From the NCBI GenBank assembly GCA_023657465.1, contig JAGTJX010000003.1, forward strand, positions 133,436 to 197,435: 64,000 nt of DNA, given 5' to 3'. The DNA is from Lysobacteraceae bacterium. GTDB lineage: Bacteria > Bdellovibrionota > UBA1018 > JAGTJX01. Positions 40,538 to 45,503 of this stretch are shown here, piece by piece. Every line of letters begins with the position of its first letter. Position 1 is the first letter of the stretch. The notes under the pieces were generated by a model that did no database searches, was not told where the DNA came from, and saw nothing but the letters and a program-made list of their open reading frames with translations. The position numbers were made by a program, and so were the translations under genes.

Positions 40538-41812
40538 TTAGTTTCTAATCCCAGTCAGTGGATCCAACCTCGCAACTCTCAGTGCAGGAATGATACTTGC
40601 ACTCATTACGATGATGAGAGCAGTGACGAAGATTCCTGCAAAGTATGACGGCAGGATGATCACAGGAAGACTCCTATCATAATAGATATCAGGTAGTGTG
40701 ATGAACTGGTAGCGTTTGAGAAGCTGGCATACAGTGAACGAGGTCACAGTGCCTAAGAGCGTACCCAATCCACCAATCGTGAGTCCCTCCACTAAGAAGA
40801 TCCCCCCAATGTGTGGAGTGGTTGCTCCCATTGTTTTCAGAATTGCTATCTCTCTTCGCTTCTCCTGAACCATCAGCGTGAGAGTCGTCACGATGTTGAA
40901 GCTTGCGACCAAGATGATGAAGGAAAGTGCGATGAACATCAGGATGCGCTCAAGCTTCAGAGAGAAGAAGAGAGCTGCATTGAGATCCTTCCAGTCTTGG
41001 ACTTTCAGATCTGGGAGCTGTTTCTCAAGTTCTACTTTAAGTATTGATGCTTCTTCGAGATCGTCTACTCTACCTTCCCAATGAGTGATCCCAGTAGAAT
41101 GACGGAGGAAACTCCTCACTGCACCGAAGTCCATGAACACCGTGTGGAGCTCTTGCTCGGGCATGCCTGAAGAATAGATACCCGCCACAACGAAACGCTT
41201 AAGCCTAGGCACAAGACTCATCGGTCCTTCGGTTTCAGTAGGTGAAACAAGAGTGACAAAATCTCCAGGAATCAGTCCCATCTCATAGGCCATTTCCTTA
41301 CCTACGAATACTCTCGATGGAGGATACGATTCACTGCCTTCACGTTGCGAGAGAAGTGCAGGATCAGCCTTCTCAATCATCTGAGTCTTAAGTAGGTCCA
41401 TTCGCTCTGGAGGGATTCCCTTAGCGATCACTCCTGTGACTCGTCTTCCTGATTTCAGAATCGCTTCAGTCTGCAGAATGGGAAAAAGTTCCAGGGATGG
41501 GAAACGAGAAGTATCGATCTTACGCTCAGGAATCATTCCCTGCTCGAATCCTCGCGTAGTGGGTTTTGGTGTGATGAGAATATGAAGCTCAGTGTTCATG
41601 AGGCGCTTCTTTAGCTCCCCTTCGAATCCTTCCATAACAGAGAGCACGACACCCATAGCAGTCACCCCTATGAGCACACCCAGTACTGATATCCATGTGA
41701 TGAAGCTTAAGTATTGAGTGCTCTTCTTGGACGAGAGATACCTAAACGCAACTCCTCTCACCCAGCTTAAGCGGGTAGAAGTGATGACAGATTTAAGAAT
41801 AGAAACGTTCAT
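40538..41812 (-). CDS. LolC/LolE-type lipoprotein-release permease
   Basis: 424 residues from ATG 41812 (GTG 41824 also fits). One N-terminal helix (ITWISVLGVLIGVTAMGVVL), a periplasmic domain, and three C-terminal helices (FIALSFIILVASFNIVTTL onward) give the FtsX/MacB_PCD topology of LolC/LolE. The complex extracts lipoproteins from the inner membrane. No LolD ATPase is next to it. The start lies inside the end of the beta-oxidation gene. Confidence 0.85.
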   Translation of the reverse strand: MNVSILKSVITSTRLSWVRGVAFRYLSSKKSTQYLSFITWISVLGVLIGVTAMGVVLSVMEGFEGELKKRLMNTELHILITPKPTTRGFEQGMIPERKIDTSRFPSLELFPILQTEAILKSGRRVTGVIAKGIPPERMDLLKTQMIEKADPALLSQREGSESYPPSRVFVGKEMAYEMGLIPGDFVTLVSPTETEGPMSLVPRLKRFVVAGIYSSGMPEQELHTVFMDFGAVRSFLRHSTGITHWEGRVDDLEEASILKVELEKQLPDLKVQDWKDLNAALFFSLKLERILMFIALSFIILVASFNIVTTLTLMVQEKRREIAILKTMGATTPHIGGIFLVEGLTIGGLGTLLGTVTSFTVCQLLKRYQFITLPDIYYDRSLPVIILPSYFAGIFVTALIIVMSASIIPALRVARLDPLTGIRN

Positions 41813-44012
41813 TGTTCTTCGCACGTTTTACGAGACTTTCACACGGTGTGAATCTCGCTTTATTGACTGAGGATGCATATTTCTCAAGTGCAGCTACAAT
41901 CTTCGCTGCACCCACCGTGTCTGCGTACCTCATGAGTCCACCTCGGAAAGGAGGGAAGCCAGTACCCATGATCATTCCTAGATCAATATCATCTGGAGTG
42001 TAGACGATCTTCTCGTCTAAGCATCTCGTCGCTTCATTGATCATTGGATAAACGCATCGCTCGACAATCATCTCAGGTTTCATGGAGCCTGACTTTGGCT
42101 TGATTCCTAGGATGGTGAGTGTCTCAGGATCTGAGAATTTTTTCAGCTTGTCTGCTTCGCCTTCGTAGCGATAGAGACCTTTTTTAGATTTCTTACCGAG
42201 CCTGCCCTTCTCTACGAGCTTCTCGTTCTTTCCTGGTATTGCAAGTCTATCACCAAAAGCATCGTTGAGAATATGAGAAACTTTTTCACCTACATCGACA
42301 CCGACCTCATCGATGAGTTCAATCGGTCCCATCGGCATTCCAAATTTTTCCATAGCAGCGTCGATCTCTTCCATCGGTACGCATTCATTCATGAGGTGAA
42401 TCGCTTCGTTGAGGTAACAAGCAAGAAGTCTGTTCACCAAGAATCCTGGAGCATCTTTCACAACGATTGGCATTTTTCCTAATTGTTTTGAGAGCGCGAA
42501 CACTGTTGCAACTGCTCGGTCGTCCGTCTGATCGCCACGGATGACTTCAATCAGAGGCATCTTAGCTACTGGGTTGAAGAAGTGCATGCCTACGAAACGC
42601 TCTGGATGCTTAAGAGCCGTACCTATCTTCGTGATCGATAGAGAAGAAGTGTTGGAAGCAATCACAGTATGATCTCTCACATTACCTTCAAGCTCTGCGA
42701 TGACCTTCTTCTTGATATCGATATTCTCGACGATCGCTTCAACAACCACTTCTGTAGATTGGAATCCCTTGTAATCCACTGTTGGAACAATGTGAGAGAG
42801 CTTCTGCCCCCACTCACGCTCCGAAATCCTGCGACGTTTGAATTGTTTTTTGAAAATTTTATTAGCGCTCTCAACTCCGAGAGTGAGCGCTTGATTATTG
42901 AGATCCTTCATCCGAATATCAATGTCCTTCTCAGCGAAGAGTTGCGCGATCCCCCCACCCATCACTCCTGCACCAAGCACTGCAGCTGAGGTGACTGGCT
43001 TCACCTCTTCTTTTTTGTTTCCTGGAAGACCAGTTGCTTTCTTAATTCCCTCTGTGATGAAGAAAAGGCTCACTAAACTATTTGAGATCGATGTCGTCGA
43101 CATTCTGCCGAATCCTTCAGCCTCGCGCTTCATCGCACGCGTACGCCATGCTCCACGGATTCCTGCTCTGTAGCCTGTGCCTGTTTCTCGGATGATTTTG
43201 ATGACTTCTAGTGGTGCTGGGTACTGCCCCTTAGATGCTTTCATCACACTCTTGCGAGCTTGTGAGAAAATCACCGCTCGTCCTATCGGAGTTTTCTCAA
43301 GTAAAGTTCCTATAAATCCACCTGCTCCACCCAGAGCAGGTTTCTTGGCTATTCGCGCGCCTGATTTAAGGAGTTTCAAATTCGCTTTTACCCAATTACA
43401 TACTGAGGTTTCAAAATTCTCCTTGGGCAGAACTGCATCTGCGAGTCCCGTCTTGTACGCACGCTCTCCACTAAGTGACTTACCTGCTAAGATGAGATCA
43501 AACGCTTGAGCGATACCGATCTTCTGAGGCATACGCACGCATCCGCCCATTCCTGGAACGAATCCCAAGAGTACTTCAGGAAGTCCGATCTTAGCTCCAG
43601 GATTATTCGACATTACGATCGAGGTGGAGGCGAGTGAGAGTTCACATCCGCCACCTAAGCATGTGCCATTGATTCCCATGACGGTAGGAAACGGAAGGTC
43701 TTCCCATCGGTTGAGAATTGCTTGTCCCTGCTCTGCTAGCATCTGCGCTTCTGCTGGAGTCTTAGCGGTTTTGATGAGTTCGATGTCTGCACCAGCGATG
43801 AAGTTGCCTGGCTTACCTGAGAGGAATACGAGAGCGTCGATCTTGCCTCCGCGTCCCATCTCTTCTAACTTCGTGACGAGTTCTTTCATCTCTTCCATTA
43901 CTGGCCTACTGAACTTGTTCACCTTCTCGCCTTGAAGGTCGAAAGTAAGTGTGTAGAGATTCATTCCATAAGTGTTGGAGCGATTTTCGAGAGTGAATGT
44001 GGATGCTGTCAT
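41793..44012 (-). CDS. fadJ: FadJ/FadB-type enoyl-CoA hydratase/3-hydroxyacyl-CoA dehydrogenase
   Basis: 739 residues. The N-terminal crotonase domain has KPGNFIAGADIELI and GTCLGGGCELSLA. The NAD-binding domain starts AAVLGAGVMGGGIAQLFA (about 333-350), and two C-terminal helical domains follow. It carries out two steps of fatty-acid beta-oxidation. There is no thiolase partner in the window. Assignment as FadJ or FadB is not separable by eye; I use fadJ for the trifunctional alpha subunit type. Confidence 0.9.
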   Translation of the reverse strand: MTASTFTLENRSNTYGMNLYTLTFDLQGEKVNKFSRPVMEEMKELVTKLEEMGRGGKIDALVFLSGKPGNFIAGADIELIKTAKTPAEAQMLAEQGQAILNRWEDLPFPTVMGINGTCLGGGCELSLASTSIVMSNNPGAKIGLPEVLLGFVPGMGGCVRMPQKIGIAQAFDLILAGKSLSGERAYKTGLADAVLPKENFETSVCNWVKANLKLLKSGARIAKKPALGGAGGFIGTLLEKTPIGRAVIFSQARKSVMKASKGQYPAPLEVIKIIRETGTGYRAGIRGAWRTRAMKREAEGFGRMSTTSISNSLVSLFFITEGIKKATGLPGNKKEEVKPVTSAAVLGAGVMGGGIAQLFAEKDIDIRMKDLNNQALTLGVESANKIFKKQFKRRRISEREWGQKLSHIVPTVDYKGFQSTEVVVEAIVENIDIKKKVIAELEGNVRDHTVIASNTSSLSITKIGTALKHPERFVGMHFFNPVAKMPLIEVIRGDQTDDRAVATVFALSKQLGKMPIVVKDAPGFLVNRLLACYLNEAIHLMNECVPMEEIDAAMEKFGMPMGPIELIDEVGVDVGEKVSHILNDAFGDRLAIPGKNEKLVEKGRLGKKSKKGLYRYEGEADKLKKFSDPETLTILGIKPKSGSMKPEMIVERCVYPMINEATRCLDEKIVYTPDDIDLGMIMGTGFPPFRGGLMRYADTVGAAKIVAALEKYASSVNKARFTPCESLVKRAKNNERFYS

Positions 44013-44085
44013 AGTGAAAGAAGTTTACCCTAGGTTTGCCAAAAACGCGTCGCACAAAACATTCTAAACATATCTGAGCGCCTCT

Positions 44086-44176
44086 CCCTTATAGGATTGT
44101 GGCATGGTTGTGGCACGAAGAAGAACACTCAAGCTTAACAGATGCGTGCCACAGTCGTGCCACAATCCTATAAGGG
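44086..44176. repeat. 31-bp imperfect inverted repeat with TTGTGGCA-type motifs
   Basis: Arms at 44086-44116 and 44146-44176 are each 31 nt and differ at three positions, around a 29-nt centre. The outer parts (cccttataggattgtggca) pair perfectly. Each arm has two copies of TGTGGCA or its complement about 11 bp apart, so there are four in all. It lies 74 bp upstream of fadJ on the minus strand. An operator, a small mobile palindrome or an RNA hairpin are all possible. Confidence 0.7.
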
Positions 44177-44210
44177 TTTATTGAGTTGTTTTAGTTTATG
44201 ATCCCTGCAC

Positions 44211-44264
44211 AAAAAAAGAAGAGAGAAGACCTAAAGAGGGGGGCTCTTGAAGAGGTCTTCTCTC
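44211..44264 (-). terminator. Rho-independent terminator of the 44328-45458 gene
   Basis: A perfect 12-bp stem (gagagaagacct 44221-44232, aggtcttctctc 44253-44264), with a smaller inner stem (aagag/ctctt), is followed on the minus strand by a T-run at 44217-44211. Confidence 0.85.
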
Positions 44265-44269
44265 CCGTA

Positions 44270-44309
44270 TTAACCTAAGCTGTCTTTTGAGGAGTACGGC
44301 TTTGGTTAA
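44270..44309 (-). other. Second hairpin between stop codon and terminator
   Basis: ttaacctaagc (44270-44280) pairs with gctttggttaa (44299-44309) in a 10-bp stem with one T-T mismatch. It lies in the 3' untranslated part of the 44328-45458 gene, before the strong terminator. It may slow 3'-end decay or be a small RNA stem. Confidence 0.45.
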
Positions 44310-44327
44310 ACTTGGCTAACTAACGAC

Positions 44328-45458
44328 TTAGAGGAAGAGGTTGAGTCCCAATTGGAAGCTGTAGAAACCAGCTTGCGCAATTGAATTCGCCACTGCCATC
44401 TTGTCTAAATCCTGAATCGGCGTTCCGTAGAACTGATACACAGGCTGAGTCTGTCTTGCATTGAGCACGAAGCTGTATTTGCCTGTGAAGCCGACTGAAA
44501 AACTATTTCCTAACTTGAGTTCCACGCCTGCTGTGATTGAAGCTAAGTACTGCTCGAGTAAGTAGTCGAGGCCGTACATTTGCATTCCATACTGTGCGAG
44601 AGTGCTCTGAATACCTTGGCTGTAATTGATGAGTGATCTGCCGTAAGCTACGCCACCACCAGCAAACGGTCTGAACTTAGAGCTAGAAGGAGTGATGAAG
44701 AATCTCATCCCTGCTTCAAACAAATGCTGTTTGGATTCAAGCGCGTTGTTTCTGAATTGTGAATATTGATTCTGAAGGGCAAACACTGGAGAGAGCTGAC
44801 TGGGCATACTGATACCGTAGAGGCTGTAGGTATATCCTAAGTCAAATGCGAATCTACCAGAGTAACCGGAGAGGTTTCCACCGAATGCATAGTAAGGAAC
44901 TACATCCATTGGGTAATAGTTGCCATAACCGAAGTTTTGGTTATTCAACGCAATATTTGCAATACCGCCACGAGGTGAAATCGCAACTCTAAATTCATCT
45001 TCGCTTGGAGCAACTTCGCCAATCGCCGTTACTGGTGAAACACTGATCTGAGCTGGAGCAGCAGACACAGCCACAGGAGAAGCTTGTGAAGTCACAATCA
45101 TTTGTTGAGCTGGGATTCCTGCTACGACTGTACCTTGAGTGTCAGCTTTAATGAGTTCTTGAACTCTGCGATCTTCATCGCGGAGTCTTAAAGATTCCAT
45201 GCGAGCACTGAGAACGTCTTCTGCTTGCATTTCTTTTCTGATGCGCTCGCGTCTGATGAGTTCGGATCGTGTGAGTTGTTCTGTTGGTGCGGCTTGCAAA
45301 ACTTGTGGAGCTGCCTGAAGTACTTGTGGCTGAGCTACGACTTGAACAGGTTGTTGCTGAACAACAACTGGGTCAGCGTCATACACAAGGTCTGCGTGAG
45401 CTTGAGATAAGCTCGTAAGCATCGCCGCTGTTATCGCTAGAATCTTCGTATTTTGCAT
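44328..45458 (-). CDS. Outer-membrane protein with coiled-coil and barrel
   Basis: ATG 45458 follows GGGAG with an 8-nt gap and starts a signal peptide (AITAAMLTSLSQAHA). The mature N-terminus is rich in Gln, Val and Pro, with a tandem QVLQAAP repeat. A charged helix of about 50 residues (about 60-115) comes next, and then a Gly/Tyr-rich barrel ending FQLGLNLFL. It has its own consensus promoter and a strong terminator, so it is probably a well-expressed single gene. No family is named. Confidence 0.75.
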   Translation of the reverse strand: MQNTKILAITAAMLTSLSQAHADLVYDADPVVVQQQPVQVVAQPQVLQAAPQVLQAAPTEQLTRSELIRRERIRKEMQAEDVLSARMESLRLRDEDRRVQELIKADTQGTVVAGIPAQQMIVTSQASPVAVSAAPAQISVSPVTAIGEVAPSEDEFRVAISPRGGIANIALNNQNFGYGNYYPMDVVPYYAFGGNLSGYSGRFAFDLGYTYSLYGISMPSQLSPVFALQNQYSQFRNNALESKQHLFEAGMRFFITPSSSKFRPFAGGGVAYGRSLINYSQGIQSTLAQYGMQMYGLDYLLEQYLASITAGVELKLGNSFSVGFTGKYSFVLNARQTQPVYQFYGTPIQDLDKMAVANSIAQAGFYSFQLGLNLFL

Positions 45459-45503
45459 ACTTTTAGCTCCCACCGTTCATTCGGTACTATTTCCTTGACG
45501 CAG

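Follow-up and report, generated by a model that had tools for sequence, protein, structure and literature searches.

The window, by which we mean the whole stretch of 64,000 nucleotides analysed here, carries a long palindrome beside a fadJ-like gene, and the question is whether this palindrome is a multi-site operator of that gene, as the earlier note on this DNA had proposed, or a small mobile palindrome, which the same note gave as the other option. The genome that holds the window (G000) comprises 2.83 Mb in four contigs. The features of the region are the following:

41793-44012, minus strand: fadJ-like ORF of 739 aa with enoyl-CoA hydratase and 3-hydroxyacyl-CoA dehydrogenase domains, 73 nt from the palindrome
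44086-44117, plus strand: left palindrome arm, carrying TTGTGGCA twice in direct orientation, at 44097-44104 and 44108-44115
44118-44144, no strand assigned: loop of 27 nt, the sequence of which changes between copies
44145-44176, minus strand: right arm, the mirror of the left arm, with TGCCACA motifs at 44147-44153 and 44158-44164
44221-44264, minus strand: perfect hairpin of 12 bp with a T run after it on this strand, read as a terminator by eye
44328-45473, minus strand: neighbouring ORF of 381 aa, ending 151 nt from the palindrome

The near-perfect inverted repeat that had been described at this site is real: the two arms are 32 nt each, stand 27 nt apart and pair at 29 of the 32 positions (91% complementary). 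Also, the four TGTGGCA-type motifs are present, two per arm and 11 bp apart. All three arm mismatches fall within the 4-nt spacer between the motifs (TGGT vs CGAC, compared by eye), and the earlier description of motifs kept and spacer varied holds. Among the three inverted repeats of the window (at least 20 nt, arms no more than 400 nt apart) this palindrome is clearly the best, the other two being 74-75% complementary. Its RNA fold (-56.2 kcal/mol, z -9.28) was equalled by 0 of 200 shuffles, and on both strands the folding is much stronger than that of shuffles; the expectation for the motif doublet under shuffling is 0.00. A known RNA family was rejected as an identity, with no Rfam match at gathering score: the four matches for positions 43900-44400 of the window are all to microRNA hairpin families and all far below the gathering scores. 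Concerning the neighbours, the palindrome does lie just upstream of the beta-oxidation gene. The ORF at 44328-45473 is without a Pfam match, its outer-membrane look being judged by eye only, and the hairpin at 44221-44264 is likely the intrinsic terminator of this gene.

Further copies were sought with a sequence-only arm model, built from 21 of the arms of G000 and applied to 150 first-look candidates per genome, a number at which weak arms could escape. The model found 25 arms in G000 at 16.3-37.9 bits, with the next best match at 11.4, and its best score in 20 relatives was 13.3 bits. Of these arms, 24 combine into 12 inverted pairs and one stands alone. Eleven of the 12 palindromes are gene-less, with near-constant arms and differing loops; in two pairs (C1:224611 and C2:296364) the left arm is without the second motif. 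The suggestion of a small mobile palindrome therefore came close, and to it can be added that the genome holds 12 paired copies in which arms are kept and loops differ. The only unpaired arm found (L054, C2:709104-709132) lies 52 nt from a uvrC-like ORF, as judged by eye.

The position of these copies bears directly on the operator proposal. Eleven of the 12 elements lie in gaps between ORF calls, and the remaining one (L014) reaches into the 5′ portion of such a call. Based on mechanical ORFs as gene calls, seven elements lie between convergent genes, four between tandem genes and one between divergent genes. The convergent share is higher than in the window, both among all neighbour pairs (10/56 vs 7/12, p = 0.002) and among gaps of more than 30 nt (4/18, p = 0.007). 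The neighbours of the elements have no common lipid pathway, and the genome-wide search for copies, which the earlier note had offered as a test of the operator, found them not grouped at lipid genes (by eye; few neighbours are lipid-like). We rejected an operator upstream of fadJ because of where the other copies sit, and the window palindrome probably does not serve the beta-oxidation gene as an operator. The arms could well act as binding sites all the same, namely for an XRE protein that is encoded within one of the copies and is described below.

The excess of convergent gaps, together with the strength of the hairpins, would also suit bidirectional terminators or RNA-stabilising hairpins between convergent genes. 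However, TTTT within 12 nt outside the arms was found in 0 of the 24 outer flanks of the G000 elements, the primary sequence of the arms is conserved, a cognate gene is present, and the window copy stands downstream of an apparent proper terminator. We regard this explanation as very improbable. Another type of structured site is the attC site of integrons, the ends of which carry a GTTRRRY core (RYYYAAC on the other strand). Searched on both strands, the core occurs once each in three of the 12 elements and is missing from the other nine, and an integron attC site was rejected on this basis.

The gene is found in the pair at C2:319095-319633, an element of about 540 bp which encloses an ORF of 170 aa; the ORF starts in one arm (the true start is uncertain) and stops in the other. 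In eight of nine elements examined, those of relatives included, the ORF reads on into the downstream arm, whose translation supplies its C-terminal tail; the exception is L061. The 170-aa protein contains a C-terminal XRE helix-turn-helix (HTH) at residues 101-151, and HTH_3 and HTH_31 are matched by all 25 members of its family. The PDB profile matches of the HTH part include XRE regulators such as C.AhdI, SinR and HipB. The protein shares their DNA-binding domain by sequence; it differs in its extra N-terminal part, and in having sites on both sides of its gene and between convergent genes.

Concerning the N-terminal part, no Pfam or PHROG family was matched in more than one of the 25 members (best E 0.023), and the best E against solved structures (PDB profile) was 0.35. 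Y1_Tnp is missing among the matches listed for the 25 members (25 of 26 families). The AlphaFold2 model, made from a 4-row alignment, has a mean pLDDT of 61.6; the HTH blocks (83-90) are confident and the N-terminal part (38-66) is not. In the alignment of the 25 members the invariant residues G94, R101 and E126 are all in the HTH part and R35 is the only nearly invariant residue of the N-terminal part, which makes a catalytic N-terminal domain less probable. Searches with the G000 protein gave no relative in viral contigs and no match in phages, and a search of plasmids with the protein of L079 yielded four matches to the HTH part, all of them weak. Similar recognition helices, IDRTHLS in G000 and IERTHLS and VDRTHLS in G013, go with the related motifs TTGTGGCAT, TTTGGCATTGTGGCAT and TTGGCGTTGTGGCGT; a fourth protein, with TRTHVIR (G003), goes with an arm that differs (all picked by eye). 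This parallel of helix and motif in three distant proteins is a hint that the protein binds the arm motifs.

Since XRE proteins are mostly regulators, the protein might simply repress itself and the genes beside the palindromes, which would then be the operators of a regulon. The PHROG matches of the protein, mostly transcriptional regulators, point the same way, as do the spacing of the motif doublets by one helical turn and the window copy lying upstream of a gene. However, with seven convergent elements, four tandem and only one divergent, the copies are not distributed as promoter sites; the XRE gene has an arm at its 3′ end as well, within its last codons in the eight elements mentioned above; and the changes mirrored between arms, to which we come below, fall outside the motif. 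A regulon is thus an unlikely explanation of the family.

The search with the G000 protein gave matches in nine of 20 same-order genomes, some of them to the HTH part only, and several of the matched ORFs are flanked by long inverted repeats whose sequences differ widely. A profile made from 11 members was compared with 368 genomes of the phylum, nine candidates being scored per genome. At E below 1e-19 there are 25 matches, which run the full length, in 19 genomes (one to three per genome, a single one in G000), all in the same order of Bdellovibrionota; the weaker profile matches listed cover mainly the HTH part, and a few of them extend back as far as profile position 40. A flanking inverted repeat is present in 18 of the 24 testable members, from 11 genera, vs one of 11 HTH-only XRE controls (Fisher p = 5.6e-4), the controls being those HTH-only matches for which a locus was returned, a subset of such matches. 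The test was made with hand-set core coordinates on 24 of the 25 members (L102, at a contig end, was omitted, and L068 stands for L069), and its result is unchanged with flanks of 400 or 700 nt. Eleven of the 24 members had suggested the idea; among the 13 first seen after it was formed, nine have the repeat (p = 0.0045). The six members without a flanking repeat are L071, L076, L079, L083, L084 and L087.

The sole control with a repeat is L094 (1227-1806, in G364, a genome of another order), an XRE gene between 34-nt inverted repeats. Its N-terminus has no match to the family profile. Judging from L094, the arrangement of an XRE gene between inverted repeats may be wider than the family.

Gene-less copies are found in relatives as well. 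The arms of 14 elements were compared with 12 genomes, and pairs were picked out of the match table by hand. There are 100 matches: 27 fall at the genes proper, and 71 of the other 73 are in the arm's own genome; the two foreign matches place a G013 arm in G010, which belongs to the same genus. The matches include 24 gene-less inverted pairs in five further genomes (eight in G003, six each in G010 and G013, three in G009 and one in G032), and all 24 share one polarity, that seen around the gene. The six pairs of G013 divide into three, two and one of three arm types, which match its three genes. In three of the 12 genomes (G015, G022 and G035) the arm is found only at the gene, and G030, G034 and G351 have single further arms only. 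The further copies inspected in G006 are direct tandem arrays rather than hairpins. One such array (L166, G006:C1:10600-10780) repeats the motif from the arms of the G006 gene at intervals of about 57 bp.

Three orthologous sites were found, with both flanks alignable at one and one flank at the other two. In an orthologous gap of the two genomes of one genus, the palindrome lies within 606 bp in G010:C100, and in G013:C241 the same flanks align and stand 31 bp apart. The additional DNA of G010:C100 comprises more than the palindrome, and loss in G013 is as possible as gain in G010.

Within a copy, the arms are closer to one another in sequence than to the arms of other copies. Arm identity within vs between copies is 0.946 vs 0.860 in G000 (0/20000 permutations, n = 10 complete pairs) and 0.957 vs 0.875 in G003 (1/20000 permutations, n = 9), in a permutation test that disregards the kinship of copies, so that a few inherited mirrored changes could inflate the result. 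The changes common to both arms of a G000 copy occupy six positions (3-6, 17 and 18), all outside TGTGGCA. It therefore seems to be important either that the arms pair or that one is copied from the other. The loops behave differently from the arms: eight loops of G003 (67-223 nt) can be aligned only over short words, and a second match at E below 0.01 was found for none of 15 loops in four genomes, a set with one of the 11 gene-less loops of G000 and no G010 loop, the other G000 loops being compared by eye. Captured DNA was rejected as the nature of the loops, no source being found with 40 of 61 first-look candidates scored in G003.

Short gene-less elements with terminal inverted repeats in intergenic gaps also call MITEs to mind, here those of an ordinary transposon of which the autonomous copy would have been lost. 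Target-site duplications are not seen, however: at the 12 G000 elements no offset gave clearly higher identity in true than in mismatched flank pairs, a comparison with approximate outer ends and no significance test. The compared loops have nothing in common, and the constant partner of the repeats in 11 genera, while the arms differ, is an XRE gene and no known transposase. That the elements are MITEs is in our judgement extremely improbable.

Dispersed palindromes are common in bacterial genomes, and in the well-studied case of REPINs the cognate protein is a HuH transposase. Rickettsia palindromic elements, ERIC and Correia elements are likewise small dispersed palindromes and resemble the family described here; we know of no cognate protein gene inside them. 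The closest description is that of REPIN-RAYT systems. According to PMC3116915 and PMC8266576, these are extragenic inverted doublets that form hairpins, their ends being conserved and their spacer less so, and the linked gene occurs in one or few copies, the repeat type being particular to the cognate protein. Compared with REPIN-RAYT systems (REPtrons) as described there, the likeness lies in the inverted doublets with a variable spacer (12 pairs in G000 and the 24 gene-less pairs of the relatives), in the extragenic position of the repeats and in a linked gene at one to three per genome. The differences are that in place of a HuH Y1 transposase there is an XRE protein whose N-terminal part is an orphan, that copies are few (12 in G000), that the gene lies inside the same arm pair, and that the stems are about 30 bp long with tandem motifs.

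The layout would allow the elements to be the REPs of a Y1 (RAYT-type) transposase encoded elsewhere, with the XRE gene as a passenger, and it fits the REPINs of PMC3116915. A Y1_Tnp match is indeed present in G000 (C2:508923-509156; L236, a single Y1-like ORF of 178 aa), and 11 of the 12 genomes have some. However, TGTGGCA is absent on both strands from the 3,234 bp in which the Y1 gene of G000 lies, and no arm-model match is near this gene; G035, with three family members of which those tested are flanked by repeats, has no match to Y1; and the gene within the repeats is the XRE gene in 18 of 24 cases. We consider the passenger explanation quite unlikely. Because the gene is of XRE type, the Y1 gene of G000 is without the arm motif and G035 is without a Y1 match, the family is a REPtron in layout but not one in kind; membership of the REPIN-RAYT/REPtron group was rejected at the defining protein (XRE, not Y1 HuH).

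The explanation that we find likely, from sequence comparison, is a family of dispersed palindromes that has a cognate XRE protein of its own, REPIN-RAYT-like in layout, with an unrelated protein and no recognisable transposase. At the level of sequence, this is a repeat family with a gene in one copy and a parallel in other genera, with genome-specific and mirrored arms, and with unrelated loops among those compared. Among the open-access papers listed in our searches, preprints being outside the scope, none was seen to connect an XRE protein with dispersed palindromes, and the family is filed here as a new kind on this thin literature basis.

According to this explanation, the window palindrome would belong, as a copy without a gene, to a hairpin family that has a protein of its own at its centre. 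The XRE protein probably binds the tandem motif in each arm, and the inverted arm pair would be the unit that is kept and multiplied, with loops free to vary and copies occupying intergenic gaps, mostly at 3′ ends. The mirrored changes suggest that a folded strand matters (a DNA hairpin or cruciform, or RNA); alternatively, one arm may be copied from the other during the making or repair of copies. Since the protein has no recognisable catalytic domain, it would either recruit a host or trans-acting enzyme or employ its orphan domain; given the Y1-like genes in 11 of the 12 genomes, a Y1 enzyme that acts in trans is conceivable. A more specific proposal is a mobile or self-maintaining repeat of a new kind, in which the one small XRE protein would itself, via the orphan N-terminal domain and with no transposase fold known so far, drive or guide how hairpins with its sites are copied, one arm serving as template for the other so that arms but not loops are inherited; we put this forward tentatively and consider it rather doubtful.

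With a cognate XRE protein as the centre of the family, an unrelated DNA-binding protein would fill the place of the HuH transposase, with arm sequences that differ across 11 genera. If confirmed, a REPIN-like layout has arisen independently with another protein, and the multiplication or persistence of repeats without a recognised enzyme becomes a testable question. Also, the family offers 18 natural pairs of protein and site for reading XRE specificity.

A second palindrome family, CACTGGCCCATTTTGGGATTTGGCAT, adjoins the first at about 1489-1550 of L195 (G010:C13), and the gaps of L195 and L193 are rich in CCGGTACCGG-like and GTCACTGG-like repeats.
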